DNA of 64,000 nt from Siphonodentalium dalli. Taxonomy: Eukaryota; Mollusca; Scaphopoda; Gadilida; Siphonodentaliidae. The notes under the pieces were generated by a model. The model was given only the letters and a program-made list of their open reading frames with translations. It searched no databases and was not told where the DNA came from. This document shows, piece after piece, positions 13,943 to 61,855 of the stretch (position 1 is the first letter of the stretch; every line of letters begins with the position of its first letter). The position numbers were made by a program, and so were the translations under genes. The stretch spans positions 9,445,784-9,509,783 of the forward strand of contig CP136066.1 of the NCBI GenBank assembly GCA_032622095.1, read 5' to 3'.

Positions 13943-14003
13943 TGCTCTTTCTGAGAAGTTTATTATATAATTGACGATAATTATACTTCCATGGTGTAAC
14001 CAA
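11655..14003 (-). pseudogene. Non-LTR retrotransposon reverse transcriptase, copy 1 (frameshifted, 5' truncated)
   Basis: The minus-strand frame from 14003 to 12225 encodes an RNA-dependent DNA polymerase of the Jockey/CR1-like non-LTR group. Visible motifs: NYRPISILP near residues 194-202, FLDLSKAFD near 266-274 with the first catalytic Asp, GVPQGSILGP near 324-333, and YADD at 354-357. The frame ends early in ENLLF-stop. The true C-terminus continues in another frame (12352 to 12044, FSEQLPFHAFPTSWNNL...), so a frameshift has broken the ORF. The endonuclease domain is missing. The 3' end, read on the minus strand, is 'aataaaatatcctatccta', the short tandem tail usual for CR1-like elements. 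Confidence 0.92.
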
Positions 14004-17200: not shown

Positions 17201-17877
17201 ATGTACGATTGGATGAAAAGTAGAGTGGTTTGGACGGAAGCCATATTGGTGCTTGTACAAAATATCGTGCTCAGTTAACAAATATATTAGACGTTTTTGC
17301 ATTATTCGTTCTAACAGCTTGGAAAAAGTAGGTAGGATGCTGATTGGTCTGTAGTTGGAAATTTCGTGTGCATTGTTATTTTTTGGTATTGGAACAACCT
17401 TTGCTATTTTCATCTTTTCTGGGACAATTCCTTGTTCAAATGAGAGGTTAAATATATGTTTCAATGCCGGAGCTATGGTTTCAATTGTTTCCTTCATGAG
17501 TTTAGTGGTTATCCCTTTAAAATCCATACTAGATTTACCTTTCATTGATAAGCAGGTTAAAATAATTTCTTGGAATGTGGTTGGGGTAACATCAAAGATG
17601 TCAAGGTCGTCTATTCTATTGCGGAGATAATCAGACAAATCTGCGTTGTGTTCATTCGCAAAAAGTTGACTGGTTTTACGCCCAATGCTCGAGAAGTACG
17701 TATTAAATTTATCAGCCATATTAAGGCTGGGACAAGTGATTTCAGTCTCGTTATCGAAAAGGACCTTAGGGTGATTAACAGTGCCCCCTTCCATCTTTAG
17801 TGCACCCTTCAATATTGTCCAAGTTTTCTTCAGATCGTTCTTGTTTTCATCAAGAATTCGTGAGTAATATAATTGTT
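14206..17877. repeat. 3.67-kb direct duplication, copy 2
   Basis: Second copy of the segment at 10272-13942, same orientation, about 99% identical by eye. It includes a second AAGATGGCGGCC block at about 14433-15535. The right boundary is sharp: after 'aattgtt' the sequences diverge completely. Confidence 0.95.
15587..17877 (-). pseudogene. Non-LTR retrotransposon reverse transcriptase, copy 2 (same frameshift)
   Basis: Same element as copy 1. The minus-strand frame runs from 18022 to 16157, but only residues after about 50 (QLYYSRILDENK onward) belong to the element. The upstream residues come from unrelated flanking DNA. NYRPISILP, LDLSKAFD, GVPQGSILGP and YADD are all present. The C-terminal frameshift is at the same place as in copy 1 (frame resumes 16284 to 15976). 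The shared break means the pair arose by duplication of an already inactive copy. Confidence 0.92.
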
Positions 17878-18341
17878 CTATGCCTATGGCCCATAACGAT
17901 TTTGTCCGCGCTTTCACCGAGGAGTTATTTCCCTTTATTTGAAAAAATGTCATTATATTATCTCGGAAATTATAAGAAGCAGAGCATCGAAAATTAGACC
18001 GTATGCACGTCTCGATATGCACTACTGCCCACGGGCATCAAAACTTGTGTCCGCGCTTTCCCTGAAGAGTTACTGCCCATAAATAGGCATACACCGAATG
18101 CATTGTACTCAGCTGTACTCTCCTATCATTCCATATAATCGAATTTGGTCTTCACAGTCGTCTTTGCCATTTACTGTTCAGTGGAAAAACGAAAACTGGA
18201 CAGGGTCGTTCTCATATTTTTACAATAGGATGGGGGTGCCAAATTAAAAAAAAAAATTCGTTAAGAATCTCGTGTATTTCTGTGTATGACTTGACTGTGT
18301 AAAGCTGGTCAAATACCGAGAAAGATTTTTGAAATCTGAGT
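17878..18341. other. Unassigned sequence before the gap
   Basis: Contains two short similar phrases ('gtccgcgctttcaccgagga' and 'gtccgcgctttccctgaaga', near 17906 and 18050). No gene is seen. Confidence 0.5.
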
Positions 18342-18441
18342 NNNNNNNNNNNNNNNNNNNNNNNNNNNNNNNNNNNNNNNNNNNNNNNNNNNNNNNNNNN
18401 NNNNNNNNNNNNNNNNNNNNNNNNNNNNNNNNNNNNNNNNN
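18342..18441. other. Assembly gap (100 N)
   Basis: Exactly 100 Ns, the usual placeholder for a gap of unknown size. Sequence just right of it is dominated by C and G homopolymers, a likely cause of the break. Confidence 0.99.
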
Positions 18442-21640: not shown

Positions 21641-21885
21641 GCATGTATTAACGCATGTGCTGTATATGCAGGGTTTCCGCTAATGGTTAGGGGAATGTTA
21701 CCCCTCTATACATACATGTATATGCAGGGTTTCCGGGTTTCCGAATGGAATGTTTACCAGATAAAGTCATTGTATTATAGTTAAATCTCGGATTAGGTGC
21801 ACATAAAAACAGCATTTTTCTACCCCCGGCTCATGCAGTCAAGCATGTTATTACTATAAGAAAATCGCAATCATGAAATTTGTTA

Positions 21886-22283
21886 GCCCTTTACCCAACA
21901 GAACGGCCCTGTGCCAATGCATTCTCTTATATATGCGAGTCGACCATAGGTCGCCTCGCATATATAAGAGAATGCATTGGCTTAACACATTAAAAATTAT
22001 AAAATTGTTAAAGAATGTAAGAAAAAATGGTAAAAAGTGTTAAAAAAAGATTTTTTTTAGGCCAATGCATTCTCTTATATATGCGAGGCGACCTATGGTC
22101 GACTCGCATATATAAGAGAATGCATTGGCACAGGGCATAACTGTAACTATCACAATGTGGTCAAGGAGCCGGTTCCAATGATATCCATATTTGTATGGTT
22201 CTATTGAGACAGACCGAAGATATTTTAGGCTGTTGAAGCTTTATTTGGCCGGTTTTGGCCGGTTTGTTGGGTAAAGGGTTAAC
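21886..22283. mobile_element. TTAA-ended composite MITE carrying two 65-bp palindromes
   Basis: Outer ends 'ccctttacccaaca' and 'tgttgggtaaagggttaa' are inverted. The TTAA at the right end, and the CCCTTT terminus, fit a piggyBac-type non-autonomous element. Inside are two nearly perfect palindromes (about 21913-21981 and 22063-22131) built on 'aatgcattctcttatatatg' and its complement. They lie in mutually inverted orientation around a 75-bp AT-rich spacer. Confidence 0.8.
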
Positions 22284-29285: not shown

Positions 29286-29440
29286 CTGCAATACAAATTC
29301 TCAAAGTCCCCTTCTAATCAAAATCGGAGTAGCTGGCAGCGACGGTTACATTAACTCAGTATTACGACCCTATGTCAATCAACTGTCAACCAAGAGTCCT
29401 GACTGGCAAACATACATCCGATTCCTCGTCATAACATTCG
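29286..29440 (+). CDS. PACS: PACS exon 1 of this window
   Basis: Acceptor 'attctgtttcag' ends at 29285 and donor CATTCG|gtaagt starts at 29441. The reading is CNTNSQSPLL, then KIGVAGSDGYINSVLRPYVN and KSPDWQTYIRFLVITF. This is the start of the conserved C-terminal block, containing the invariant-looking GxxGYINSVLRPYV and PDWxxYIRFLV segments. The exon begins with the last base of a split codon, so at least one upstream exon must exist. It ends in phase 1. Confidence 0.95.
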
Positions 29441-29760
29441 GTAAGTTATCCTAAAATCTATAATTAGTATCCGATTCCTCATCATAACATACAATAAGTT
29501 ATCCTAAAATTAACGTCTGATTTCTCGTTATAATATGCTGTAAGTTATCGAAAAATCTATAATTAGCATCCGATTCCTCGTCATGAAGTTTATGAAATTA
29601 TCCTAAAATTAACATCCGCTTCCTCGTTATAACATTCTGTAAGTTTTATGACAATTCTGATTCCTCGTTATAATATTCGGCAAGTTATTCTTATTTAAAG
29701 CAAATTTACATCTGATTCATCGTCAAAGTATTCATCATGTTTTATGACGATTCCTAAAAC
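29412..29760. repeat. Decayed tandem copies of the exon-1 5' splice boundary
   Basis: The exon end plus intron start ('atccgattcctcgtcataac' + 'attcg|gtaagttatcc') is followed by about six diverged copies at roughly 29468, 29515, 29568, 29614, 29653 and 29710. Some keep the GT (tgtaagtt, ctgtaagtt). Others have lost it (aataagtt, cggcaagtt). Unit length varies from about 40 to 57 bp. Confidence 0.82.
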
Positions 29761-29774
29761 ATAATTAAAGCAAA

Positions 29775-30176
29775 TCATATACCTTGTCATACAAAAAATC
29801 ATATTCTGTGTCATACATATAAATCATATTTCTGTGTCATACATATAAATCATATTCCGTGTCATACATATAAATCATATTCTGTGTCATACATATAAAT
29901 CATATTCTGTGTCATACATATAAATCATATTCCGTGTCATACATATAAATCATATTCTGTGTCATACATATAAATCATATTCCGTGTCATACATATAAAT
30001 CATATTCCGTGTCATACATATAAATCATATTCTGTGTCATACATATAAATCATATTCCGTGTCATACATATAAATCATATTCCGTGTCATACATATAAAT
30101 CATATTCTGTGTCATACATATAAATCATATTCTGTGTCATACATATAAATCATATTCCGTGTCATTAGTGTTCAAA
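29775..30176. repeat. 25-bp satellite, segment 1
   Basis: About 15 copies of the unit 'tcatacatataaatcatatt' plus 'c/t cgtg'. The same satellite resumes at 31259 and at 31790. The three segments are one array opened by two insertions. Confidence 0.95.
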
Positions 30177-31258: not shown

Positions 31259-31476
31259 CGTGTCATACATATAAATCATATTCCGTGTCATACATATAAA
31301 TCATATTCCGTGTCATACATATAAATCATATTCTGTGTCATACATATAAATCATATTCTGTGTCATACATATAAATCATATTCCGTGTCATACATATAAA
31401 TCATATTCCGTGTCATACATATAAATCATATTCCGTGTCATACATATAAATCATATTCCGTGTCATACATATAAAT
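31259..31476. repeat. 25-bp satellite, segment 2
   Basis: Nine copies of the same 25-bp unit as at 29775-30176. They begin at exactly the phase expected if the element at 30177-31258 was inserted. Confidence 0.95.
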
Positions 31477-31789: not shown

Positions 31790-31922
31790 ATAAATCATAT
31801 TCCGTGTCATACATATAAATCATAGTCTGTGTCATACATATAAATCATATTCTGTGTCATACATATAAATCGTATTCTGTGTCATACATATAAATCATAT
31901 TCCGTGTCATACATATAAATCA
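31790..31922. repeat. 25-bp satellite, segment 3
   Basis: Five copies completing the array that starts at 29775. Confidence 0.93.
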
Positions 31923-32865: not shown

Positions 32866-33265
32866 TTAACCCTTTACCCAACAAACCGCCCAAAACCGGC
32901 CAAGTAAAGCTTCAACAGCCTAAAATATCTTCGGTCTGTCTCAATAGAACCATACAAATATGGATATCATTGGAACCGGCTCCTTGACCACATTGTGATA
33001 GTTACAGTTATGCCCTGTGCCAATGCATTCTCTTATATATGCGAGTCGACCATAGGTCGCCTCGCATATATAAGAGAATGCATTGGCCTAAAAAAAATCT
33101 TTTTTAACACTTTTTACCATTTTTTTCTTACATTCTTTAACAATTTTATAATTTTTAATGTGTTAAGCCAATGCATTCTCTTATATATGCGAGGCGACCT
33201 ATGGTCGACTCGCATATATAAGAAAATGCATTGGCACAGGGCCCCTCTGTTGGGTAAAGGGTTAA
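32866..33265. mobile_element. TTAA-ended composite MITE with two palindromes (best copy)
   Basis: Starts 'ttaaccctttacccaacaaa' and ends 'tgttgggtaaagggttaa'. After about 140 bp of 'aaccggcc', 'aataaagcttcaaca'-like sequence it carries two palindromes of about 70 bp (33015-33087 and 33170-33239) in inverted orientation, separated by 'aacactttttaccatttttt' and similar AT-rich text. Flanking 'ccctgtg' and 'cacaggg' extend the inverted repeat. Confidence 0.85.
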
Positions 33266-33576: not shown

Positions 33577-36098
33577 ATTTCTGTCTCCACCATGGGTCTT
33601 ATATCTGTCTCCACCATGGGTCTTATTTCTGTCTCCACCATGGGGTCTTATTTCTGTCTCCACCATGGGTCTAATATCTGTCTCCACCATGGGGGTCTTA
33701 TATCTGTCTCCACCATGGGTCTTATATCTGTCTCCACCATGGGGTCTTATATCTGTCTCCACCATGGGTCTTATATCTGTCTCCACCATGGGGTCTTATA
33801 TCTGTCTCCACCATGGGGTCTTATATCTGTCTCCACCATGGGTCTTATATCTGTCTCCACCATGGGGTCTTATATCTGTCTCCACCATGGGGTCTTATAT
33901 CTGTCTCCACCATGGGTCTTATATCTGTCTCCACCATGGGGTCTTATATCTGTCTCCACCATGGGTCTTATATCTGTCTCCACCATGGGTCTTATATCTG
34001 TCTCCACCATGGGGTCTTATATCTGTCTCCACCATGGGGTCTTATATCTGTCTCCACCATGGGGTCTTATATCTGTCTCCACCATGGGTCTTATATCTGT
34101 CTCCACCATGGGGTCTTATATCTGTCTCCATCATGGGTCTTATATCTGTCTCCACCATGGGGTCTTATATCTGTCTCCACCATGGGTCTTATTTCTGTCT
34201 CCACCATGGGGTCTTATATCTGTCTCCACCATGGGTCTTATATCTGTCTCCACCATGGGTCTTATATCTGTCTCCACCATGGGTCTTATATCTGTCTCCA
34301 CCATGGGTCTTATATCTGTCTCCACCATGGGTCTTATATCTGTCTCCACCATGGGTCTTATATCTGTCTCCACCATGGTGTCTTATATCTGTCTCCACCA
34401 TGGGGTCTTATATCTGGTTCCACCATGGGTCTTATATCTGTCTCCACCATGGGTCTTATATCTGGTTCCACCATGGGTCTTATATCTGTCTCCACCATGG
34501 GTCTTATATCTGTCTCCACCATGGGTCTTATATCTGGTTCCACCATGGGGTCTTATATCAGTCTCCACCATAGGTCTTATATCTGTCTCCACCATGGGGT
34601 CTTATATCTGTCTCCACCATGGGTCTTATCAGTCTCCACCATGGGTCTTATATCTGTCTCCACCATGGGTCTAATATCTGTCTCCACCATGGGGTCTTAT
34701 ATCTGTCTCAACCATGGGGTCTTATATCTGTCTCCACCATGGGGTCTTATATCTGTCTCCACCATAGGTCTTATATCTGTCTCCACCATGGGTCTTATAT
34801 CTGTCTCCACCATGGGTCTAATATCTGTCTCCACCATGGGGTCTTATATCTGTCTCCACCATAGGGTCTTATATCTGTCTCCACCATAGGTGTTATATCT
34901 GTTTCCACCATGGGTCTTATATCTGTCTCCACCATGGGTCTTATATCTGTCTCCACCATGGGTCTTATATCTGTCTCCACCATGGGTCTTATATCTGTCT
35001 CCACCATGGGTCTTATATCTGTCTCCACCATGGTGTCTTATATCTGTCTCCACCATGGGTCTTATATCTGTCTCCACCATGGGTCTTATATCAGTCTCCA
35101 CCATGGGTCTTATATCTGTCTCCACCATGGGTCTTATATCAGTCTCCACCATGGTGTCTTATATCTGTCTCCACCATGGGTCTTATATCTGTCTCCACCA
35201 TGGGTCTTATATCAGTCTCCACCATGGGTCTTATATCTGTCTCCACCATGGGTCTTATATCTGTCTCCACCATGGTGTCTTATATCTGTCTCCACCATGG
35301 GTCTTATATCTGTCTCCACCATGGGTCTTATATCAGTCTCCACCATGGGTCTTATATCTGTCTCCACCATGGGTCTTATATCAGTCTCCACCATGGGTCT
35401 TATATCTGTCTCCACCATGGGTCTTATATCTGTCTCCACCATGGGTCTTATATCTGTCTCCACCATGGTGTCTAATATCTGTCTCCACCATGGTGTCTAA
35501 TATCTGTCTCCACCATGGTGTCTAATATCTGTCTCCACCATGGGGTCTTATATCTGTCTCCACCATGGTGTCTAATATCTGTCTCCACCATGGGGTCTTA
35601 TATCTGTCTCCACCATGGGGTCTTATATCTGTCTCCACCATGGTGTCTAATATCTGTCTCCACCATGGTGTCTAATATCTGTCTCCACCATGGTGTCTAA
35701 TATCTGTCTCCACCATGGGGTCTTATATCTGTCTCCACCATGGGGTCTTATATCTGTCTCCACCATGGTGTCTAATATCTGTCTCCACCATGGGGTCTTA
35801 TATCTGTCTCCACCATGGGGTCTTATATCTGTCTCCACCATGGTGTCTAATATCTGTCTCCACCATGGTGTCTAATATCTGTCTCCACCATGGTGTCTAA
35901 TATCTGTCTCCACCATGGGGTCTTATATCTGTCTCCACCATGGGGTCTTATATCTGTCTCCACCATGGTGTCTAATATCTGTCTCCACCATGGGGTCTTA
36001 TATCTGTCTCCACCATGGGGTCTTATATCTGTCTCCACCATGGGGTCTTATATCTGTCTCCACCATGGGGTCTTATATCTGTCTCCACCATGGGTCTT
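33577..36098. repeat. 24/25-bp satellite, about 103 copies
   Basis: Tandem units 'gtcttatatctgtctccacc' + 'atgg(g)'. The 24-bp form keeps frame and the 25-bp form (extra G, or GTG) shifts it, so long open frames appear on both strands in all phases. Variants such as 'tatcagtctcc', 'tatctggttcc' and 'taatatctg' form clusters; the right third (35450-36000) repeats a pattern of 'tgtctaat' and 'ggtcttat' units with a period of about 200 bp. It ends 40 bp before exon 2. Confidence 0.97.
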
Positions 36099-36139
36099 AT
36101 TTTTCCTGTGAATTAATATTTGTCGTCTTATATATTCAG

Positions 36140-38595: not shown

Positions 38596-38698
38596 ATTCT
38601 CAAGAAATCATGACCAGAGTGTCGAAATACTTAATTAGTGCTAATCACATCGTTAATATCCCCATCGCTGAGGCTATGGTCATGCATAAAGGAAAGAG
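38596..38698 (+). CDS. PACS: PACS exon 3 of this window (first unit of the giant array)
   Basis: Acceptor 'caatttactttcag' ends at 38595 and donor AAAGAG|gttagt starts at 38699. Translation: DSQEIMTRVSKYLISANHI, then VNIPIAEAMVMHKGKR. It matches the PACS stretch containing IPIAEAM. It enters in phase 1 and leaves with two bases (AG) that pair with G of exon 4. The last 70 bases are also the first part of the 89-bp repeat unit that continues for 9.2 kb. Only this copy has the proper upstream 33 bases and polypyrimidine tract. Confidence 0.95.
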
Positions 38699-41600
38699 GT
38701 TAGTATCTGTTCATCATACTTAATTAGTGCTAATCACATCGTTAATATCCCCATCGCTGAGGCTATGGTCATGCATAAAGGAAAGAGGTTAGTATCTGTT
38801 CATCATACTTAATTAGTGCTAATCACATCGTTAATATCCCCATCGCTGAGGCTATGGTCATGCATAAAGGAAAGAGGTTAGTATCTGTTCATCAGTCTTA
38901 ATTAGTGCTAATCACATCGTTAATATCCCCATCGCTGAGGCTATGGTCATGCATAAAGGAAAGAGGTTAGTATCTGTTCATCATACTTAATTAGTGCTAA
39001 TCACATCGTTAATATCCCCATCGCTGAGGCTATGGTCATGCATAAAGGAAAGAGGTTAATAGTATCTGTTCATGATACTTAATTAGTGCTAATCACATCG
39101 TTAATATCCCCATCGCTGAGGCTATGGTCATGCATAAAGGAAAGAGGTTAGTATCTGTTCATCATACTTAATTAGTGCTAATCACATCGTTAATATCCCC
39201 ATCGCTGAGGCTATGGTCATGCATAAAGGAAAGAGGTTAGTATCTGTTCATGATACTTAATTAGTGCTAATCACATCGTTAATATCCCCATCGCTGAGGC
39301 TATGGTCATGCATAAAGGAAAGAGGTTAGTATCTGTTCATCATACTTAATTAGTGCTAATCACATCGTTAATATCCCCATCGCTGAGGCTATGGTCATGC
39401 ATAAAGGAAAGAGGTTAGTATCTGTTCATCATACTTAATTAGTGCTAATCACATCGTTAATATCCCCATAGCTGAGGCTATGGTCATGCATAAAGGAAAG
39501 AGGTTAGTATCTGTTCATCATACTTAGTTAGTGCTAATCACATCGTTAATATCCCCATAGCTGAGGCTATGGTCATGCATAAAGGAAAGAGGTTAGTATC
39601 TGTTCATTATACTTAATTAGTGCTAATCACCTCGTTAATATCCCCATAGCTGAGGCTATGGTCATGCATAAAGGAAAGAGGTTAGTATCTGTTCATCATA
39701 CTTAATTAGTGCTAATCACATCGTTAATATCCCAATCGCTGAGGCTATGGTCATGCATAAAGGAAAGAGGTTAGTATCTGTTCATTATACTTAATTAGTG
39801 CTAATTACATCGTTAATATCCCCATCGCTGAGGCTATGGTCATGCATAAAGGAAAGAGGTTAGTATCTGTTCATTATACTTAATTAGTGCTAATCACATC
39901 GTTAATATCCCCATAGATGAGGCTATGGTCATGTATAAAGGAAAGAGGTTAGTATCTGTTCATAATACTTAATTAGTGCTAATCACATCGTTAATATCCC
40001 CATCACTGAGGCTATGGTCATGCAGAAAGGAAAGAGGTTAGTATCTGTTCATTATACTTAATTAGTGCTAATCACATCGTTAATATCCCCATAGATGAGG
40101 CTATGGTCATGCATAAAGGAAAGAGGTTAGTATCTGTTCATTATACTTAATTAGTGCTAATCACATCGTTAATATCCCCATAGATGAGGCTATGGTCATG
40201 CATAAAGGAAAGAGGTTAGTATCTGTTCATAATACTTAATTAGTGCTAATCACATCGTTAATATCCCCATCGCTGAGGCTATGGTCATGCATAAAGGAAA
40301 GAGGTTAGTATCTGTTCATCATACTTAATTAGTGCTAATTACATCGTTAATATCCCCATCGCTGAGGCTATGGTCATGCATAAAGGAAAGAGGTTAGTAT
40401 CTGTTCATCATACTTAATTAGTGCTAATCACATCGTTAATATCCCCATCGCTGAGGCTATGGTCATGCAGAAAGGAAAGAGGTTAGTATCTGTTCATCAT
40501 ACTTAGTTAGTGCTAATCACATCGTTAATATCCCCATAGCTGAGGCTATGGTCATGCATAAAGGAAAGAGGTTAGTATCTGTTCATCATACTTAATTAGT
40601 GCTAATCACATCGTTAATATCCCCATCGCTGAGGCTATGGTCATGCATAAAGGAAAGAGGTTAGTATCTGTTCATCATACTTAATTAGTGCTAATCACAT
40701 CGTTAATATCCCCATAGCTGAGGCTATGGTCATGCATAAAGGAAAGAGGTTAGTATCTGTTCATCATATTAATTAGTGCTAATCACATCGTTAATATCCC
40801 CATCGCTGAGGCTATGGTCATGCATAAAGGAAAGAGGTTAGTATCTGTTCATCATACTAGTGCTAATCACATCGTTAATATCCCCATCGCTGAGGCTATG
40901 GTCATGCATAAAGGAAAGAGGTTAGTATCTGTTCATACTTAATTAGTGCTAATCACATCGTTAATATCCCCATAGCTGAGGCTATGGTCATGCATAAAGG
41001 AAAGAGGTTAGTATCTGTTCATCATACTAGTGCTAATCACATCGTTAATATCCCCATCGCTGAGGCTATGGTCATGCATAAAGGAAAGAGGTTAGTATCT
41101 GTTCATCATACTTAATTAGTGCTAATCACATCGTTAATATCCCCATCGCTGAGGCTATGGTCATGCATAAAGGAAAGAGGTTAGTATCTGTTCATCATAC
41201 TTAATTAGTGCTAATCACATCGTTAATATCCCCATAGCTGAGGCTATGGTCATGCATAAAGGAAAGAGGTTAGTATCTGTTCATCATACTAGTGCTAATC
41301 ACATCGTTAATATCCCCATCGCTGAGGCTATGGTCATGCATAAAGGAAAGAGGTTAGTATCTGTTCATCATACTTAATTAGTGCTAATCACATCGTTAAT
41401 ATCCCCATCGCTGAGGCTATGGTCATGCATAAAGGAAAGAGGTTAGTATCTGTTCATCATACTTAATTAGTGCTAATCACATCGTTAATATCCCCATAGA
41501 TGAGGCTATGGTCATGCATAAAGGAAAGAGGTTAGTATCTGTTCATCAGTCTTAATTAGTGCTAATCACATCGTTAATATCCCCATCGCTGAAGCTATGG

Positions 41601-44600
41601 TCATGCATAAAGGAAAGAGGTTAGTATCTGTTCATCATACTTAATTAGTGCTAATCACATCGTTAATATCCCCATCGCTGAGGCTATGGTCATGCATAAA
41701 GGAAAGAGGTTAGTATCTGTACATCATACTTAATTAGTGCTAATCACATCGTTAATATCCCCATCGCTGAGGCTATGGTCATGTATAAAGGAAAGAGGTT
41801 AGTATCTGTTCATCATACTTAATTAGTGCTAATCACATCGTTAATATCCCCATCGCTGAGGCTATGGTCATGCATAAAGGAAAGAGGTTAGTATCTGTTC
41901 ATCATACTTAATTAGTGCTAATCACATCGTTAATATCCCCATCGCTGAGGCTATGGTCATGTATAAAGGAAAGAGGTTAGTATCTGTTCATCATACTTAA
42001 TTAGTGCTAATCACATCGTTAATATCCCCCTCGCGAGGCTATGGTCATGCATAAAGGAAAGAGGTTAGTATCTGTTCATAATACTTAATTAGTGCTAATC
42101 ACATCGTTAATATCCCCATCGCTGAGGCTATGGTCATGCAGAAAGGAAAGAGGTTAGTATCTGTTCATCATACTTAATTAGTGCTAATCACATCGTTAAT
42201 ATCCCCATAGATGAGGCTATGGTCATGCATAAAGGAAAGAGGTTAGTATCTGTTCATCATATTAATTAGTGCTAATCACATCGTTAATATCCGCATAGCT
42301 GAGGCTATGGTCATGCATAAAGGAAAGAGGTTAGTATCTGTTCATCATACTTAGTTAGTGCTAATCACATCGTTAATATCCCCATAGCTGAGGCTATGGT
42401 CATGCATAAAGGAAAGAGGTTAGTATCTGTTCATCATACTTAATTAGTGCTAATCACATCGTTAATATCCCCATAGATGAGGCTATGGTCATGCATAAAG
42501 GAAAGAGGTTAGTATCTGTTCATCATACTTAATTAGTGCTAATCACATCATTAATATCCCCATCGCTGAGGCTATGGTCATGCATAAAGGAAAGAGGTTA
42601 GTGTCTGTTCATCATACTTAATTAGTGCTAATCACATCGTTAATATTCCCATCGCTGAGGCTATGGTCATGCATAAAGGAAAGAGGTTAGTATCTGTTCA
42701 TTATACTTAATTAGTGCTAATCACATCGTTAATATCCCCATCGCTGAGGCTATGGTCATGCATAAAGGAAAGAGGTTAGTATCTGTTCATCATACTTAAT
42801 TAGTGCTAATCACATCGTTAATATCCCCATCGCTGAGGCTATGGTCATGCATAAAGGAAAGAGGTTAGTATCTGTTCATTATACTTAATTAGTGCTAATT
42901 ACATCGTTAATATCCGCATAGCTGAGGCTATGGTCATGCATAAAGGAAAGAGGTTAGTGTCTGTTCATCATACTTAATTAGTGCTAATCACATCGTTAAT
43001 ATCCCCATCGCGAGGCTATGGTCATGCATAAAGGAAAGAGGTTAGTATCTGTTCATCATACTTAATTAGTGCTAATCACATCGTTAATATCCCCATCGCT
43101 GAGGCTATGGTCATGCATAAAGGAAAGAGGTTAGTGTCTGTTCATCATACTTAATTAGTGCTAATCACATCGTTAATATCCCCATCGCGAGGCTATGGTC
43201 ATGCATAAAGGAAAGAGGTTAGTATCTGTTCATCATACTTAATTAGTGCTAATCACATCGTTAATATCCCCATCGCTGAGGCTATGGTCATGCATAAAGG
43301 AAAGAGGTTAGTGTCTGTTCATCATACTTAATTAGTGCTAATCACATCGTTAATATCCCCATCGCTGAGGCTATGGTCATGCATAAAGGAAAGAGGTTAG
43401 TATCTGTTCATCATACTTAATTAGTGCTAATCACATCGTTAATATCCCCATCGCTGAGGCTATGGTCATGCATAAAGGAAAGAGGTTAGTATCTGTTCAT
43501 CATACTTAATTAGTGCTAATCACATCGTTAATATCCCCATCGCTGAGGCTATGGTCATGCATAAAGGAAAGAGGTTAGTATCTGTTCATCATACTTAATT
43601 AGTGCTAATCACATCGTTAATATCCCCATAGCTGAGGCTATGGTCATGCATAAAGGAAAGAGGTTAGTATCTGTTCATGATACTTAATTAGTGCTAATCA
43701 CATCGTTAATATCCCCATCGCTGAGGCTATGGTCATGCATAAAGGAAAGAGGTTAGTATCTGTTCATCATACTTAATTAGTGCTAATCACATCGTTAATA
43801 TCCCCATCGCTGAGGCTATGGTCATGCATAAAGGAAAGAGGTTAGTATCTGTTCATCATATTAATTAGTGCTAATCACATCGTTAATATCCCCATCGCTG
43901 AGGCTATGGTCATGCATAAAGGAAAGAGGTTAGTATCTGTTCATCATATTAATTAGTGCTAATCACATCGTTAATATCCCCATCGCTGAGGCTATGGTCA
44001 TGCATAAAGGAAAGAGGTTAGTATCTGTTCATCATACTTAATTAGTGCTAATCACATCGTTAATATCCCCATCGCTGAGGCTATGGTCATGCATAAAGGA
44101 AAGAGGTTAGTATCTGTTCATCATATTAATTAGTGCTAATCACATCGTTAATATCCCCATCGCTGAGGCTATGGTCATGCATAAAGGAAAGAGGTTAGTA
44201 TCTGTTCATCATACTTAATTAGTGCTAATCACATCGTTAATATCCCCATCGCTGAGGCTATGGTCATGCATAAAGGAAAGAGGTTAGTATCTGTTTATCA
44301 TACTTAATTAGTGCTAATCACATCGTTAATATCCCCATCGCTGAGGCTATGGTCATGCATAAAGGAAAGAGGTTAGTATCTGTTTATCATACTTAATTAG
44401 TGCTAATCACATCGTTAATATCCCCATCGCTGAGGCTATGGTCATGCATAAAGGAAAGAGGTCGGTATCTGTTTATCATACTTAATTAGTGCTAATCACA
44501 TCGTTAATATCCCCATCGCTGAGGCTATGGTCATGCATAAAGGAAAGAGGTTAGTATCTGTTTATCATACTTAATTAGTGCTAATCACATCGTTAATATT

Positions 44601-47600
44601 CCCATCGCTGAGGCTATGGTCATGCATAAAGGAAAGAGGTTAGTATCTGTTCATCATACTTAATTAGTGCTAATCACATCGTTAATATCCCCATCGCTGA
44701 GGCTATGGTCATGCATAAAGGAAAGAGGTTAGTATCTGTTCATAATACTTAATTAGTGCTAATCACATCGTTAATATCCCCATCGCTGAGGCTATGGTCA
44801 TGCATAAAGGAAAGAGGTTAGTATCTGTTCATCATACTTAATTAGTGCTAATCACATCGTTAATATCCCCATCGCTGAGGCTATGGTCATGCATAAAGGA
44901 AAGAGGTTAGTATCTGTTCATCATACTTAATTAGTGCTAATCACATCGTTAATATCCCCATCGCTGAGGCTATGGTCATGCATAAAGGAAAGAGGTTAGT
45001 ATCTGTTCATAATACTTAATTAGTGCTAATTATATCGTTAATATCCCCATCGCTGAGGCTATGGTCATGTATAAAGGAAAGAGGTTAGTATCTGTTCATC
45101 ATACTTAATTAGTGCTAATCACATCGTTAATATCCCCATAGCTGAGGCTATGGTCATGTATAAAGGAAAGAGGTTAGTATCTGTTCATAATACTTAATTA
45201 GTGCTAATCACATCGTTAATATCCCCATCGCTGAGGCTATGGTCATGCATAAAGGAAAGAGGTTAGTATCTGTACATCATACTTAATTAGTGCTAATCAC
45301 ATCGTTAATATCCCCATCGCTGAGGCTATGGTCATGCATAAAGGAAAGAGGTTAGTATCTGTTCATCATACTTAATTAGTGCTAATCACATCGTTAATAT
45401 CCCCATCGCTGAGGCTATGGTCATGCATAAAGGAAAGAGGTTAGTATCTGTTCATCATACTTAATTAGTGCTAATCACATCGTTAATATCCCCATAGCTG
45501 AGGCTATGGTCATGCATAAAGGAAAGAGGTTAGTATCTGTTCATCATACTTAATTAGTGCTAATCACATCGTTAATATCCCCATAGCTGAGGCTATGGTC
45601 ATGCATAAAGGAAAGAGGTTAGTATCTGTTCATCATATTTAATTAGTGCTAATCACATCGTTAATATCCCCATCACTGAGGCTATGGTCATGCATAAAGG
45701 AAAGAGGTTAGTATCTGTTCATGATACTTAATTAGTGCTAATCACATCGTTAATATCCCCATAGATGTGGCTATGGTCATGCATAAAGGAAAGAGGTTAG
45801 TATCTGTTCATGATACTTAATTAGTGCTAATCACATCGTTAATATCCCCATCGCTGAGGCTATGGTCATGCATAAAGGAAAGAGGTTAGTATCTGTACAT
45901 CATACTTAATTAGTGCTAATCACATCGTTAATATCCCCATCGCTGAGGCTATGGTCATGCATAAAGGAAAGAGGTTAGTATCTGTTCATCATACTCAATT
46001 AGTGCTAATCACATCGTTAATATCCCCATCGCTGAGGCTATGGTCATGCATAAAGGAAAGAGGTTAGTATATGTTCATCATACTTAATTAGTGCTAATCA
46101 CATCGTTAATATCCCCATCGCTGAGGCTATGGTCATGCATAAAGGAAAGAGGTTAGTATCTGTTCATCATACTTAATTAGTGCTAATCACATCGTTAATA
46201 TCCCCATCGCTGAGGCTATGGTCATGCATAAAGGAAAGAGGTTAGTATCTGTTCATCATACTTAATTAGTGCTAATCACATCGTTAATATCCCCATCGCT
46301 GAGGCTATGGTCATGTATAAAGGAAAGAGGTTAGTATCTGTACATCATACTTAATTAGTGCTAATCACATCGTTAATATCCCCATAGCTGAGGCTATGGT
46401 CATGCATAAAGGAAAGAGGTTAGTATCTGTTCATCATATTAATTAGTGCTAATCACATCGTTAATATCCCCATCGCTGAGGCTATGGTCATGCATAAAGG
46501 AAAGAGGTTAGTATCTGTTCATCATACTTAATTAGTGCTAATCACATCGTTAATATCCCCATTGCTGAGGCTATGGTCATGTATAAAGGAAAGAGGTTAG
46601 TATCTGTTCATCATACTTAATTAGTGCTAATCACATCGTTAATATCCCCATAGCTGAGGCTATGGTCATGCATAAAGGAAAGAGGTTAGTATCTGTTCAT
46701 CATACTTAATTAGTGCTAATCACATCGTTAATATCCCCATCGCTGAGGCTATGGTCATGCATAAAGGAAAGAGGTTAGTATCTGTTCATAATACTTAATT
46801 AGTGCTAATCACATCGTTAATATCCCCATCGCTGAGGCTATGGTCATGCATAAAGGAAAGAGGTTAGTATATGTTCATCATACTTAATTAGTGCTAATCA
46901 CATCGTTAATATCCCCATAGCTGAGGCTATGGTCATGCATAAAGGAAAGAGGTTAGTATCTGTTCATCATACTTAATTAGTGCTAATCACATCGTTAATA
47001 TCCCCATCGCTGAGGCTATGGTCATGTATAAAGGAAAGAGGTTAGTATCTGTTCATCATACTTAATTAGTGCTAATCACATCGTTAATATCCCCATCGCT
47101 GAGGCTATGGTCATGTATAAAGGAAAGAGGTTAGTATCTGTACATCATACTTAATTAGTGCTAATCACATCGTTAATATCCCCATCGCTGAGGCTATGGT
47201 CATGCATAAAGGAAAGAGGTTAGTATCTGTACATCATACTTAATTAGTGCTAATCACATCGTTAATATCCCCATCGCTGAGGCTATGGTCATGCATAAAG
47301 GAAAGAGGTTAGTATCTGTTCATCATACTTAATTAGTGCTAATCACATCGTTAATATCCCCATCGCTGAGGCTATGGTCATGCATAAAGGAAAGAGGTTA
47401 GTATCTGTTCATCATACTTAATTAGTGCTAATCACATCGTTAATATCCCCATCGCTGAGGCTATGGTCATGCATAAAGGAAAGAGGTTAGTATATGTTCA
47501 TCATACTTAATTAGTGCTAATCACATCGTTAATATCCCCATCGCTGAGGCTATGGTCATGTATAAAGGAAAGAGGTTAGTATCTGTTCATCATATTAATT

Positions 47601-47860
47601 AGTGCTAATCACATCGTTAATATCCCCATCGCTGAGGCTATGGTCATGCATAAAGGAAAGAGGTTAGTATCTGTTCATCATACTTAATTAGTGCTAATCA
47701 CATCGTTAATATCCCCATAGCTGAGGCTATGGTCATGTATAAAGGAAAGAGGTTAGTATCTGTTCATCATATTAATTAGTGCTAATCACATCGTTAATAT
47801 CCCCATCGCTGAGGCTATGGTCATGCATAAAGGAAAGAGGTTAGTATCTGTTCATCATAC
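38629..47860. repeat. 89-bp exon-derived satellite, about 104 copies
   Basis: Each unit equals the last 70 bases of PACS exon 3 ('acttaattagtgctaatcac' through 'ataaaggaaagag') plus 19 intron bases ('gttagtatctgttcatcat'). Every unit therefore repeats a complete 5' splice site. Units are very similar. Common variants are cgctgagg/agctgagg/agatgagg, tgcataaa/tgtataaa, tca|tca versus tta, and short deletions (catactagtg, catattaatt, atcgcgagg). The left end is the genuine exon. The right end abuts a hAT-like MITE end ('caaaccttgaaatag') at 47862. Confidence 0.98.
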
Positions 47861-47861
47861 T

Positions 47862-48120
47862 CAAACCTTGAAATAGTGTGACTGTCATTTGCAGAATGAC
47901 GTTCCCATAGGGTGAATTTAGTGATGCTTTCCCGCACAGCAGGCTAGTGTCACAAAATTCAAACTCTTGGAATTTTATTCTGCTGAGGCCTCAACTGCTA
48001 TGGTAGACCTAGGATCAGACTGAAGTTTCCGAGTTGAAGTTGGTGATGTTCACCCATTAGTCACCTCAATTACGCATTTTATCACATCCAAAATTGAAGA
48101 AAAATAATATATCCATGAGG
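47862..48120. mobile_element. Truncated 'caagccttgaaatag' MITE at the array end
   Basis: Begins 'caaaccttgaaatagtgtga' immediately after the last 89-bp unit, continues 'ctgtcatttgcagaatga' and the 'ccatagggtgaatttagtg' arm. It then degenerates into 'gaggcctcaactgctatggt' and 'cacccattagtcacctcaat', as in the block at 26350-27480. Confidence 0.75.
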
Positions 48121-49200
48121 ACAGATATAAGGAGAATTACTGCAATTTATTTTCATGCCTGTGAATCATGACTGCATGTATCGTGGTGTAACCGCGGTAT
48201 GCGCGGTGTTGAAGCGGTAACCTGACCACGGTGTTGGAGGTTACCGCAGTATAATACCACAGTATTACCAGTGTGACATCACGTTAACCCTTTACCCAAC
48301 AGTTATGCCCTGTGCCAATGCATTCTCTTATATATGCGAGTCGACCATAGGTCGCCTCGCATATATAAGAGAATGCATTGGCTTAACACATTAAAAATTA
48401 TAAAATTGTTAAAGAATGTAAGAAAAAATGGTAAAAAGTGTTTAAAAAAAGGTTTTTTTTTAGGCCAATGCATTCTCTTATATATGCGAGGCGACCTATG
48501 GTCGACTCGCATATATAAGAGAATGCATTGGCACAGAGCTAACTGTAACTAACACAATGTGGTCAAGAAGCCGGTTCTAATGATATCCATATTTGTATGG
48601 TTTTATTGAGACAGACCGAAGATATTTTAGGCTGTTGAAGCTTTATTTGGCCGGTTTTGGCCGTTTTGTTGGGTAAAGGGTTAAGAGGTGGTCAATTACT
48701 TTAAGTTCCACAGATATAAGGAGAATTACTGCATTTTATTTTCATGCCTGTGAATCATGACTGCATGTATCGTGGTGTAACCGCGGTATGCGCGGTGTTG
48801 AAGCGGTAACCTGACCACGGTGTTGGAGGTTACCGCAGTATAATACCACAGTATTACCAGTGTGACATCACGTTAACCCTTTACCCAACAAACCGGCCAG
48901 AACCGGACAAATAAAGCTTCAACAGTCTAAAATATCTTGGGTCTGTCTCAATAGAACCATACAAATATGGATATCATTGGAACCGGCTCCTTGACCACAT
49001 TGTGATAGTTACAGTTAGCCCTGTGCCAATGCATTCTCTTATATATGCGAGTCGACCATAGGTCGCCTCGCATATATAAGAGAATGCATTGGCCTAAAAA
49101 AAATCTTTTTTTCTTACATTCTTTAACAATTTTATAATTTTTAATGTGTTAAGCCAATGTATAGTTCTGTTGGGTAAAGGGTTAAGAGGTGGTCAATTAC
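48121..49200. mobile_element. Two tandem units each carrying a TTAA composite MITE
   Basis: The 165-bp phrase starting 'cagatataaggagaattact' at 48123 is repeated at 48713. Both contain 'catgactgcatgtatcgtgg', 'accgcggtatgcgcggtgtt' and 'gtgtgacatcacgttaaccc'. Each is followed by a TTAA MITE: 48284-48684 in one orientation with two palindromes (48313-48381, 48463-48532), and 48873-49185 in the other orientation with only one palindrome (49023-49093). Confidence 0.8.
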
Positions 49201-49379
49201 TTTACGTATAGCTGTTGTTTATGGTGTTGGGACAGATTTTTCACATTTGATCGAAGTTGAAAGACCTCTCAATATGTCCGATTGACACATGGCAGTGCCA
49301 CATTCCTTTAAATACTATATATGTGTATTTAAACTGCATATTTTATACCATTACCATTAAGAAGATCTGAAATTTATAT

Positions 49380-50182
49380 GAATAGAAAAATGTTAAAACC
49401 AACCAATTCAATGTTTCATGGAAAAATGTTAAAACCAACCAATTCAATGTTTCATGGAAAAATCTTAAAACCAACCAATTCAATGTTTCATGGAAAAATG
49501 TTAAAACCAACCAATTCAATGTTTCATGGAAAAATCTTAAAACCAACCAATTCAATGTTTCATGGAAAAATCTTAAAACCAAACAATTCAATGTTTCATG
49601 GGAAAATCTTAAAACCAACCAATTCAATGTTTCATGGAAAAATCTTAAAACCAACCAATTCAATGTTTCATGGAAAAATGTTAAAACCAACCAATTCAAT
49701 GTTTCATGGAAAAATCTTAAAACCAACCAATTCAATGTTTCATGGAAAAATCTTAAAACCAACCAATTCAATGTTTCATGGAAAAATCTTAAAACCAAAC
49801 AATTCAATGTTTCATGGAAAAATCTTAAAACCAACCAATTCAATGTTTCATGGAAAAATCTTAAAACCAACCAATTCAATGTTTCATGGAAAAATCTTAA
49901 AACCAAACAATTCAATGTTTCATGGAAAAATGTTAAAACCAACCAATTCAATGTTTCATGGAAAAATCTTAAAACCAACCAATTCAATGTTTCATGGAAA
50001 AATGTTAAAACCAACCAATTCAATGTTTCATGGAAAAATGTTAAAACCAACCAATTCAATGTTTCATGGAAAAATGTTAAAACCAACCAATTCAATGTTT
50101 CATGGAAAAATGTTAAAACCAAACAATTTAATGTTTCATGGAAAAATCTTAAAACCAAACAATTCAATGTTTCATGGAAATG
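49380..50182. repeat. 36-bp satellite, about 22 copies
   Basis: Units 'aaaatcttaaaaccaaccaa' + 'ttcaatgtttcatgga' with C/G (atctt/atgtt) and ccaacc/ccaaac variants. Since 36 is a multiple of 3 and the unit lacks stops in one frame on each strand, long reading frames of 12-residue repeats appear in both directions. They are not genes: they overlap perfectly as antisense pairs and lie within PACS intron 3, ending 38 bp before exon 4. Confidence 0.97.
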
Positions 50183-50220
50183 AATTTACATGCTTGAGTT
50201 GTTTTTGACTGTATTTATAG

Positions 50221-50263
50221 GACTGATGAAGAGTCTACACAAGTGTTCGTCCCATTCATTAGC
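50221..50263 (+). CDS. PACS: PACS exon 4 of this window (43-bp mini-exon)
   Basis: Acceptor 'tgactgtatttatag' ends at 50220 and donor ATTAGC|gtgagt starts at 50264. It completes AGG (Arg) and reads TDEESTQVFVPFIS, matching the PACS DEES...F(I/V)PF motif. It enters after two bases and ends in phase 0. Confidence 0.93.
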
Positions 50264-55579: not shown

Positions 55580-55739
55580 TTGATATGGAAGAGAATGTGT
55601 CGTCACCAACCTTGTCTAGTTCCCCCCCATCGTCATCAAACCTTGCAGAAAAACTCAACGAGAAACTCATCGAGAAACCAAAGGAACACAGCACACCTCC
55701 AAGTTCTCCACAAGTCTCTGGTGCTGCACCCATGTCAGG
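55580..55739 (+). CDS. PACS: PACS exon 6 of this window (Ser/Pro-rich linker)
   Basis: Acceptor 'attggtatattacag' ends at 55579 and donor TCAGG|gtatgt starts at 55740. It reads VDMEENVSSPTLSSSPPSSS, then KLNEKLIEKPKEHSTPPSS and PQVSGAAPMS. It is a low-complexity serine/proline/lysine linker in the place where PACS proteins have a Ser/Pro-rich variable region. Six Ser-Pro or Thr-Pro type sites are potential phosphorylation sites, by inference only. Confidence 0.93.
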
Positions 55740-55865
55740 GTATGTACTATAGCCTAGATACTCGGGTATTTCTCCTAGATAACCGGGTATATACTATAGC
55801 CTAGATACTCAGGTATGTCTCCTAGATACCCGTGTATGTACTATACCCGAGATACCCAGGTATTA
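55736..55865. repeat. Decayed tandem copies of the exon-6 5' splice boundary
   Basis: The donor text 'cagggtatgtactatagcct' + 'agatactcgg' recurs as 'gggtatttctcctagataac', 'cgggtatatactatagccta', 'caggtatgtctcctagatac' and 'cgtgtatgtactatacc'. The same minisatellite continues at 56757-56880, split by a TIR element. Several copies keep GTATGT. Confidence 0.8.
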
Positions 55866-57598: not shown

Positions 57599-57989
57599 TA
57601 ATTTATCTCTGCCTTTGTAGTTGACAGACTGCAGGCATTTGATGGTATAAAGACTCGAGTGTTTATAATAAACACAACAGTCAACTGTTCTGAGTAACAT
57701 ACATGTTTTCTCCTCTTGCAAGATGCGAGGATTATCTTCACTCGCCTAGTGCCGTGTAAAAATAAACCTCCGCATCTCACTCAAGGAGTTCTAGACTATT
57801 GTCTATTTATATCTCTTGGAGCATAGAGACTGCAGTTAGTTTGATGGTACAGAGCCCGTCGTCTGAGTAATAATAACTGATTCTATTTATATCTCGTTGT
57901 GGGTATACAGACTGCAGTGAGTTTGATGGTACAGAGCCCTCGTTGGAGTTATAGTAATTATAATTAATTCTATTTATATCTCTTTGTAG
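57599..57989. repeat. Three diverged copies of the exon-7 3' splice boundary
   Basis: Copies at about 57599-57660, 57803-57880 and 57881-57968 precede the true exon-7 boundary. Each shows 'tatttatatctc', the acceptor region, 'agactgca' and 'gtttgatggtacagagccc'. In copy 1 the acceptor is still 'ctttgtag' but leads directly into TGA. In copy 2 it is 'cttggag' (poor -3 base). In copy 3 the AG has become GG ('gttgtgg'). Confidence 0.82.
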
Positions 57990-58234
57990 CGTACAGACTG
58001 CAGGCAGTTTGATGGTACAGAGCCCGTCGTCGGAGTACATGGATTTACAGGTGGAGTATTGGATCGGCCCTGGCAGGCTCCAGGGTATCGATAAAGAGAG
58101 AAGCGGCAAGAAAGACTCTAATAAAAACTCTATGAAAACGACGTTTCGTTCTCTCTTTGTTGGTCGTTCACTCAATAGTTCGGAACCGCATTTATTCTCA
58201 ATGGTTGTTGTTACGCGGGAGAAGAAACAGAAAA
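57990..58234 (+). CDS. PACS: PACS exon 7 of this window
   Basis: Acceptor 'tatatctctttgtag' ends at 57989 and donor CAGAAAA|gtaagt starts at 58235. Translation: VQTAGSLMVQSPSSEYMDLQ, then VEYWIGPGRLQG, KKDSNKNSMKTTFRSLFVG and FSMVVVTREKKQK. It matches PACS at LQVxYW, the KKD basic stretch, TFRSL and MxVVTxEKxxK. This acceptor was chosen over the nearer 'actgcag' at 58003 because only 57990 keeps the codon split with exon 6 (GG + C). Confidence 0.95.
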
Positions 58235-59837: not shown

Positions 59838-60110
59838 CAGTAATGTGACTATTTTTTGTAGTAATGTGACTATTTTTTGTAGTAATGTGACTATTTTTTG
59901 TAGTAATGAGACTATTTTTTGTAGTAATGTGACTATTTTATGTGGTAATGTGACTATTTTTTGTAGTAATGTGACTATTTTTTGTAGTAATGAGACTATT
60001 TTTTATAGTAATGTGACTATTTTTTGTAGTAATGAGACTATTTTATGTAGTAATGAGACTATTTTATGAAGTAATGAGACTATTTTATGTAGTAATGAGA
60101 CTATTTTTTG
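59838..60110. repeat. 21-bp minisatellite of 3' splice sites, 13 copies
   Basis: Thirteen exact-period units ('tagtaatgtgactatttttt' + 'g') begin at 59838 and run directly into exon 8, whose own boundary is the fourteenth occurrence. Each unit supplies a T-rich tract, (t/a)AG and the first exon bases TAATG. Units differ mainly in gtgac/gagac: the former puts TGA in the exon-8 frame, the latter leaves it open. Units 10-13 (from 60027) are all open. Unit 6 has tGG, so it lacks the acceptor AG. Confidence 0.96.
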
Positions 60111-60113
60111 TAG

Positions 60114-60221
60114 TAATGAGACTAGGAAAGAAAGCCAAAGAGTCTGAATCAAAAAGTCAGATCATAGACGGGATCAGTCGGCTCATCTGTACGTCAAGAA
60201 GTCAGAATTTTCCCCTCAAAG
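60114..60221 (+). CDS. PACS: PACS exon 8 of this window
   Basis: Acceptor 'gactattttttgtag' ends at 60113 and donor CTCAAAG|gtatgt starts at 60222. It completes ATA and reads MRLGKKAKESESKSQIIDGI, then SRLICTSRSQNFPLK, matching PACS KKAK..ESKSQ.I.GISRLICT. The last of the tandem acceptors is chosen because it gives the length seen in the family. Upstream acceptors at 60029, 60050, 60071 and 60092 are 21 bases apart and also in frame. Confidence 0.94.
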
Positions 60222-60957: not shown

Positions 60958-61140
60958 TGCAGTGTGTCTGGACGGTGTAGAATGATTTTCTCATGTTATT
61001 TTGATCTCGTTTCGGTGTAGAATGATTTTCTCATGTTATTTCGGTCTCGTTTCGGTGTAGAATGATTTGCTCATGTTATTTTGATCTCATTTTGGTGTAG
61101 AATGATTTTCTCATGTTATTTTGATCTCTTCTCATTTCAG
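60958..61140. repeat. 40-bp tandem copies of the exon-9 3' boundary
   Basis: Starting with 'tgcagtgtgtctggacggtg' (a near copy of the true acceptor and exon start), four 40-bp units carry 'ggtgtagaatgattttctca' + 'tgttattttgatctcgtttc'. The true exon repeats 'gtgtggacggtgtagaatgg' at 61143. Later units have 'tttcgg' or 'ttttgg' where the acceptor AG would be, so they lack it. Confidence 0.88.
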
Positions 61141-61259
61141 TATGTGTGGACGGTGTAGAATGGTCTGGTGTTAAGTTCTTCCAACTGTCATCTCAATGGC
61201 AGACACATCTGAAGCATTTCCCTGTGGCATCATTCTGTGTGGCGGAGTCGTTGTGCTGA
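61141..61259 (+). CDS. PACS: PACS exon 9 of this window, with stop codon
   Basis: Acceptor 'atctcttctcatttcag' ends at 61140. Translation: [20 protein letters not shown], then [18 protein letters not shown] and TGA at 61257-61259. The first part matches the PACS terminus (DGVEW..VKFFQL..QW..H.KHFP). After KHFPVASF the last nine residues do not match the usual family end and lie inside a tandem repeat (61228-61400), so the C-terminus appears rewritten. Confidence 0.93.
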
Positions 61260-61405
61260 GATACGCATGCGATCATTTCTGGCGGAGTTGCATGTGATCA
61301 TTTCTATGTGGCCGAGTCGCATGCGATCATTTCTGTGTGGTGGAGTCGCACGCGATCATTTCTGTGTCGCTGTGCCGAGATACGCATCCGATCATTCTAT
61401 GTACT
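61228..61405. repeat. Degenerate 29-45-bp repeats spanning the stop codon
   Basis: Five units of 'catttctgtgtggcggagtc' + 'gcatgcgat', two with 'tgtgctgagatacgc' or 'tgtgccgagatacgc' inserted. The first unit encodes the final residues and stop of PACS, and the rest form the start of the 3' UTR. Confidence 0.85.
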
Positions 61406-61585: not shown

Positions 61586-61855
61586 AATAGAACCAAGCCT
61601 TGAAATAGGGCGTCTGTCATTTGCAGAATGAGGTCCCCAGAGGGTGAATTTAGTGATGCTACCCCGCATAGCGGGCTAGCATCACCAAATTCACCCTCTG
61701 GGGACCTCATTCTGCTTACACCTCAGCAGATTGAGGTTCCCAGAGGGTGAATTTGGTGATGCTAGCCCACTATACGGGGTAGCATCACTAAATTCACCCT
61801 CTGGGGACCTCATTCTGCAAATGACAGACACACTATTTCAAGGCTTGAATAGAAC
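61586..61855. mobile_element. hAT-like MITE with 8-bp target duplication
   Basis: Element 61594-61847 has termini 'caagccttgaaatag' and 'ctatttcaaggcttg'. The flanking 8 bp 'aatagaac' is perfectly duplicated (61586-61593 and 61848-61855). The interior is two large nested palindromes, each 'gaggt(c/t)ccagagggtgaa'-like arms around 'ctagc' and 'gggtagcatc' motifs. Confidence 0.92.

Follow-up and report, generated by a model that had tools for sequence, protein, structure and literature searches.

The 3' end of a PACS exon and the start of the intron behind it, 5' splice site included, are repeated in tandem 104 times in the window, i.e. the whole stretch of 64,000 nucleotides that was analysed. 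It is very likely that this array is a mirage: a minisatellite on an exon-intron junction that would have been seeded at the five bases ATACT and reshuffled afterwards, that is tolerated by a gene which would use only the first of the repeated donors, and that is one of several of its kind. The array and the two exons next to it are situated as follows (a slash marks a splice boundary).

38596 to 38698, + strand: authentic PACS exon 3 of the window, 103 nt (acceptor TTACTTTCAG/ATTC, donor AAAGAG/GTTAGT; in frame; Pacs-1 match)
38627 to 47861, + strand: mirage-type array of 104 units of 89 bp, ending in an ATACT stub (TRF, unit split)
50221 to 50263, + strand: PACS exon 4, the acceptor partner of the exon 3 donor (joined nine-exon translation)

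Judged from its sequence, the gene that hosts the 89-bp array is PACS. Exons 3 and 4 taken together match the Pfam family Pacs-1 (PF10254) with an E value of 2.3e-10, a search with the Pacs-1 profile revealed exons along the region of the window, and the nine exons of the window make up one open frame up to the stop, with GT-AG at the internal edges. Comparison of the exon 3-4 peptide with the PDB gave no match. The PACS exons are numbered here within the window, which makes exon 3 the third of these; for the gene as a whole this number, which was given in an earlier sequence-only reading, does not hold, as earlier exons are located elsewhere in the assembly. Intron 3 of the window extends from 38699 to 50220 (11,522 bp).

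TRF described the array (38627-47861) with a period of 89, 104.1 copies and 97% matches (score 17463). Splitting against the consensus yielded 104 complete units followed by the five-base stub, and at least 87 of the 104 units were exactly 89 bp long. In the TRF phase, which is arbitrary within the five-base ATACT homology, a unit consists of the last 72 nucleotides of exon 3 and the first 17 of the intron. The border between the two reads AGAG/GT in every one of the 104 units and the exact donor 11-mer AGAGGTTAGTA is present in 98 of them. These counts bear out the approximately 104 tandem copies of an exon end with its GT donor that the sequence-only reading had reported. It had placed the array at 38629-47860 and divided the unit into 70 exon and 19 intron bases; the array and its junction-spanning unit stand, whereas the start proved to lie two bases earlier, the end at 47861 and the split at 72 + 17. 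It had also described a conserved coding segment in the unit and a real acceptor at the first copy only. Both descriptions agree with our results: the unit encodes the peptide ...NIPIAEAMVMHKGKR, the acceptor TTACTTTCAG/ is located outside the unit, and the acceptor edge of exon 3 is free of repeats. Likewise supported is the view that the array, seeded on the exon-intron junction of a conserved gene, adds many potential 5' splice sites ahead of the intron's 3' end.

In a genome search in which the best candidates were scored, the 89-bp unit was located at two PACS copies and in one 65-bp piece on contig C2, which is a lower bound; arrays at many unrelated places, as expected for a stand-alone satellite, were not found among these candidates. 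The 65-bp piece crosses a unit junction and is 97% identical (L002 1528-1592), so that a fragment of the array has been copied to another place.

The term mirage was coined for tandem repeats that cross the exon-intron boundaries of amphioxus Adh3, and the accessible parts of the two reports describe such repeats also in the globins BflGb6 and BflGb9, in troponin C and in PGBD5 (PMC3087553, PMC3902484). Their units measure 10 to 160 bp, the boundary can be on either side and many units carry splice signals (PMC3087553, PMC3902484). The PACS array resembles these mirages in that its unit spans the splice boundary of a real gene (72 + 17 bases in an intact gene model) and in that the splice signals are kept (GT in 104 of 104 units and, in the second PACS copy, in 20 of 20). 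It differs from them, as far as those parts go, because several boundaries of one gene are affected and because it has 104 and 20 units against 6, 3 and (PGBD5) 3. The 6 and 3 units of BflGb6 belong to two haplotypes (PMC3087553), and the 104 and 20 units of PACS to two near-identical copies that would be alleles. No report of an array of about 100 junction units was found among the open-licence PMC papers listed by the literature searches. Measured against these partly accessible sources, the PACS array is a very large mirage, of a kind already known from amphioxus, with a copy number far above the reported cases.

Mirages have been proposed as a source of introns (PMC3087553), and the excerpted account for Cryptococcus describes introns created by repeat expansion (PMC2395259). 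With intron gain by internal tandem duplication, as outlined there, the PACS array shares the tandem copies of a splice-signal segment within a gene; unlike it, no new intron is evident, the existing intron having grown with exon order and frame unchanged. The polyubiquitin gene UBC has tandem dual-specific splice sites with AGGT-bearing repeats (PMC10809524), and AG/GT is present in the PACS unit as well. However, the UBC repeat, according to the excerpt of that report, encodes one monomer, and varying numbers of such repeats are spliced, whereas the PACS unit of 89 bp is not a multiple of 3 and brings a stop into the extended frame.

The exact number of 104 did not hold for both copies of the gene. 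The copy in the window (copy B) is located on C6 at 9.446-9.510 Mb and the other (copy A) on C6 at 6.86-6.91 Mb, where the junction array (6889776-6891552) has 20 units.

18342 to 18441, no strand: assembly gap of 100 N; the contig with the window copy of PACS starts at 18442

Copies A and B align in blocks that are 89-99% identical, most of them 94-99%, with unaligned insertions between the blocks (blocks of at least 300 bp, those inside the array left out), and they are colinear from window base 18891 to 20 kb past the window end, as judged from same-strand blocks of more than 500 bp. A third piece, at 2.476-2.491 Mb on C6, contains earlier PACS exons and aligns to A up to 6867263; it stops at another 100-N gap (L010 5685-5784) about 0.5 kb past the end of the homology. 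The alignment of B to A begins at A 6867254, again about 0.5 kb from a 100-N gap. Since the homology of both pieces ends near such gaps, B and the third piece are most simply read as the two halves of a second haplotype that scaffolding has misplaced. From the gap positions the two PACS copies are most likely alleles placed apart by the assembly, so that both haplotypes are probably kept as separate places on one chromosome and the array length is probably polymorphic. Alternatively, the two copies could be a real segmental duplication.

It is decidedly unlikely that the array or its length was produced by the assembly, be it through a collapsed or expanded repeat or through a false duplicate of the whole locus. 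It is true that this PACS locus is very likely a haplotig that was retained and joined at the 100-N gap and that the unit count differs fivefold between the copies. However, the presence of the same array in a second PACS copy makes a local assembly error unlikely, the array has the same flanks and different unit variants in the two copies, and five other PACS arrays are equal in A and B (53-bp, 3.3 copies; 47-bp, 2.7; 82-bp, 2.8; 40-bp, 3.9; 29-bp, 3.7). The counts that differ between A and B include those of a 21-bp array (34.6 vs 13.6), a 24-bp array (129 vs 103) and the 89-bp array (20 vs 104); the arrays of copy A were taken from the TRF rows of at least two copies in 44 kb of that copy. 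A 37-bp array of 36 copies in copy A (C6:6900695-6902031) has no matching row in the TRF list of the window. The 24-bp array of the window (103 copies, 33580-36100) ends 40 bp before the acceptor of exon 2. Other close pairs in the assembly are L041/L042 and L054/L055, whose longest blocks reach identities of 98.3% and 97.6%.

The borders of the 89-bp array give an indication of how it arose.

38627 to 38631, + strand: ATACT in exon 3, present again in the intron just behind the last unit (ATACTCAAACC); probable microhomology of the seed, identical in the second copy (sequence)

The five bases are found in exon 3 (...CGAAATACTTAATT) and after the last unit (...TTCATCATACTCAAACC), and both ATACT borders are identical in the second PACS copy. 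In the ancestral intron the latter ATACT occupies bases 18-22, at a distance of 89 bp from the exonic one, and a duplication between the two matches yields exactly the observed 89-bp unit. The match common to exon and ancestral intron at this distance suggests that the array was likely seeded by a microhomology-mediated duplication. The exonic and the intronic ATACT would have mispaired during replication or repair, giving one tandem copy of exon end and donor, presumably by slippage or end joining. A homology of five bases is short, and an initiating event other than ATACT mispairing may have to be considered.

After such a seed, slippage or unequal exchange would have enlarged and reshuffled the array to 104 vs 20 units; that its length and order have changed is evident from the unit variants. 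Compared in pairs, units differ on average by 2.8% within B and equally by 2.8% within A, and by 2.9% when units of A are set against units of B; this divergence is of the same order as the A-B difference outside the array. A composite unit type with four changes is common to unit 19 of A and unit 81 of B, which points to a single ancestral array that was already diverse, and a block of three units occurs twice in A (units 4-6 and 7-9), which indicates local copying. To go by these variants, both PACS copies probably inherited one already diverse array, the length of which changed afterwards.

As regards splicing, donor 1 alone preserves the protein and gives, with the real acceptor, the 103-nt exon. 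With any of the donors 2-104 the extended exon reads ...KGKRLVSVHHT*, a stop being reached in 103 of 103 cases after seven more codons. We infer that exon 3 is spliced from donor 1. Units 2-104 would then leave with the 11.5-kb intron, and transcripts from later donors would reach the stop and probably be degraded, which suggests that the repeat is tolerated rather than functional. The Adh3 data and the globin RT-PCR in the accessible part of the amphioxus work suggest that mirage genes are spliced regularly (PMC3087553), which offers a parallel for the presumed use of donor 1 in PACS.

The downstream donors have not decayed: GT is lost in 0 of the 122 downstream units of both copies, so there is no sign of selection against donors in the array. 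Selection that would keep them was found to be unsupported. Across the 124 units 33 of the 89 columns are variable; among donor columns -3 to +6 these are 2 of 9, against 31 of 80 elsewhere, an excess of conservation that is not significant (Fisher P 0.48), and the longest run of invariant columns is 12 (P 0.08). The same test bears on the idea that the array works, its 104 donors binding U1 snRNP, protecting the long transcript from premature polyadenylation or tuning the expression of PACS. GT in all 104 and 20 units and the full 11-mer in 98 of 104 would be in keeping with such a role, which we nevertheless hold to be highly improbable: the donor columns are not significantly better conserved, the other copy has only 20 units, and similar arrays are present on acceptor sides and beyond the stop codon.

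It is also hardly credible that the units serve as optional exons. AG is found in the unit at columns 10, 44, 63, 68 and 70, giving candidate pseudo-exons of 60, 26, 7, 2 and 0 nt. The 60-nt one is the only one of length above zero that keeps the frame; from TTAG/T at column 10 to the donor it would form a phase-matched segment, divisible by 3, that adds 20 residues. However, its acceptor context (TCTGTTCATCATACTTAATTAG) is weak by eye, neighbouring units leave an intron of 29 nt so that units would need to be skipped, and an AG at column 44, 63 or 68 would put the segment out of frame. At 23 places in B and 5 in A a change of C to A in column 39 produces CCATAG, a further possible acceptor. 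A tolerated mirage that is spliced from its first donor is the preferred reading.

Repeats were also present at other exon edges of PACS.

29286 to 29440, + strand: PACS exon 1 of the window, donor boundary also repeated (sequence; edge z 11.5)
29414 to 29645, + strand: older repeats of 53/99 bp, now decayed, from the donor boundary of exon 1 (TRF; alignment score 34)
29772 to 30165, + strand: 25-bp array of 15.8 copies; its unit resembles the end of exon 1, from which it would derive (TRF; 13 vs shuffle mean 6.4, P 0.0015, shuffled units)
55738 to 55864, + strand: 47-bp repeat of 2.7 copies from the exon 6 donor; donor repeated with at most 2 exon bases (TRF; z 8.1; alignment)
57802 to 58036, + strand: 82-bp repeat of 2.8 copies across the acceptor of exon 7 (exon from 57990), with more than 30 exon bases (TRF; z 17.5; alignment)
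59839 to 60124, + strand: 21-bp array of 13.6 copies abutting the acceptor of exon 8 (exon from 60126), intronic bases only (TRF; z 7.4; 34.6 copies in the other PACS copy)
60973 to 61128, + strand: 40-bp array of 3.9 copies before exon 9 (from 61141), unit with the exon 12-mer CGGTGTAGAATG (TRF unit vs exon; z 11.6)
61264 to 61367, + strand: 29-bp array of 3.7 copies repeating the 3' end of the coding sequence past the stop (61257-61259) (TRF; z 10.4; alignment)

The z values stem from an edge test in which 30 exon and 20 intron bases were compared with the adjoining 600 intron bases, an edge with z>6 being positive. Six of the 17 PACS splice edges (the donors of exons 1, 3 and 6 and the acceptors of exons 7, 8 and 9) exceeded this value, and so did the end of the coding sequence. 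By alignment, copies that clearly span the boundary were seen at exons 1, 3 and 7. At exon 9 the boundary is spanned by the 12-mer alone, the best edge alignment falling on the intron part and not on CGGTGTAGAATG; the exon 6 repeat takes in no more than 2 exon bases, and the array at exon 8 abuts the exon without including any. The donors of exons 2 and 5 were rejected as boundary repeats (z 1.7 and 2.3, under the threshold). Further 25-bp blocks are situated at 31259-31476 and 31790-31922. The similarity of the units suggests that the exon 1 boundary repeat may have given rise to the 25-bp arrays, which are absent from the TRF list of copy A, a copy without most of that stretch.

Within the PACS introns many control points were positive in the same test: 288 of 663 on the right side and 292 of 663 on the left (43-44%) over all introns, 137 and 140 of 510 (27%) once the 89-bp array was set aside, and 83 and 86 of 454 (18-19%) with the 24- and 36-bp arrays removed as well. 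A junction hot spot inside PACS was not accepted, because 6 of 17 edges against 27% of the controls outside the array amounts to no clear enrichment. The exon edges of PACS are thus not spared by repeats and not clearly enriched in them. The share of sequence covered by TRF repeats is 37.7% for the B contig in the window, 21.0% for A and 36.8% for the region of the third piece. It is 7.3% in the contig that precedes the gap, and the myosin and ubiquitin-protease loci have 5.6% and 8.3%.

The latter two groups comprise 45 exon loci, 25 of myosin (the best of 80 listed matches) and 20 of ubiquitin protease (the best of 41 listed matches). Boundary-spanning repeats were identified by TRF and reading in 4 of the 45, which form two apparent pairs; this is no unbiased rate, since the loci were the best-scoring ones, many of the myosins are related and some have internal stops. 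L054 (C5:249.31 Mb) and L055 (C5:249.07 Mb) contain an acceptor-side junction array of a ubiquitin-protease gene, in reverse complement at 34-1510 and 1369-1510. What is repeated is the acceptor together with the opening codons of the exon that encodes the FGNTCYCNS box, the USP catalytic box. TTTCAG/TTTGGTAACACGTG is present in at least 28 copies in L054, where the array comes near the edge of the locus (1.5 kb examined), and in 3 in L055, the authentic ones included. In L022 and L024 (C4:288.89 and 291.68 Mb) the end of a muscle-myosin exon and its GTAGGT donor are in tandem (67 bp, 2.1 copies) at about 1600-1760, in the direction of the exon. Junction repeats are present in no fewer than three genes, at the donor as well as the acceptor end of introns. 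The sequence-only reading had treated the PACS array as a single odd event; in view of the boundary repeats at further edges of PACS and in two other genes of the genome this was not supported.

The z-test showed no edge enrichment in the 45 best-scoring myosin and ubiquitin-protease loci: 0 of 50 myosin match ends were positive vs 7 of 275 intron control points, and 3 of 40 ubiquitin-protease match ends vs 30 of 220. Two of these three positives are the pair L054/L055. The third, L059, has beside its exon an array similar to a MITE-like element of L002; it was not counted as a junction repeat. As match ends are taken for exon ends in this test, the repeats of L022 and L024, found by TRF, were missed by it. 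The region C4:274.2-275.5 Mb contains many close myosin-head matches and is apparently a cluster of muscle-myosin genes or the retained haplotypes of one gene.

It is conceivable, with chances that we would call about even, that junction minisatellites are common throughout the genome of an animal that is not a lancelet, the boundaries of many genes being present at tens to a hundred copies that vary between alleles and lengthen introns while splicing is undisturbed. If so, identical splice sites in competition would be available as a natural series in living animals. How the spliceosome chooses among numerous identical 5' splice sites is usually examined on constructed minigenes. PACS has donors that are nearly identical, 104 of them in copy B and 20 in copy A, and the ubiquitin-protease gene at least 28 acceptors vs 3; if these pairs are alleles, the RNA of one animal would directly test first-come and exon-definition rules and the cost of long arrays for expression. 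If the host is not a lancelet, mirages would also be of wider occurrence than the accessible parts of PMC3087553 and PMC3902484 state. As to lineage, searches for the GFP family (PF01353), the mollusc haemocyanin domain and cuticle families yielded no match, although such negatives do not prove absence. The pattern is one of introns that become longer as their own borders are copied, a way in which new introns have been proposed to arise.

Several other elements were noted in and near the window. A fold-back MITE-like element (GCAGAATGAGGT...GGGTGAATTTAGTGATGCT) is located at 47885-47990, directly after the 89-bp array, and again at 61623-61818, downstream of the gene. A repeat of about 400 bp occurs at 21883-22282, 32866-33265 and 48284-48684 and also in copy A, in both orientations and with 91-98% identity. 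The contig before the gap contains two reverse-transcriptase frames (PF00078), at 12225-14003 and 16157-18022, both on the - strand.
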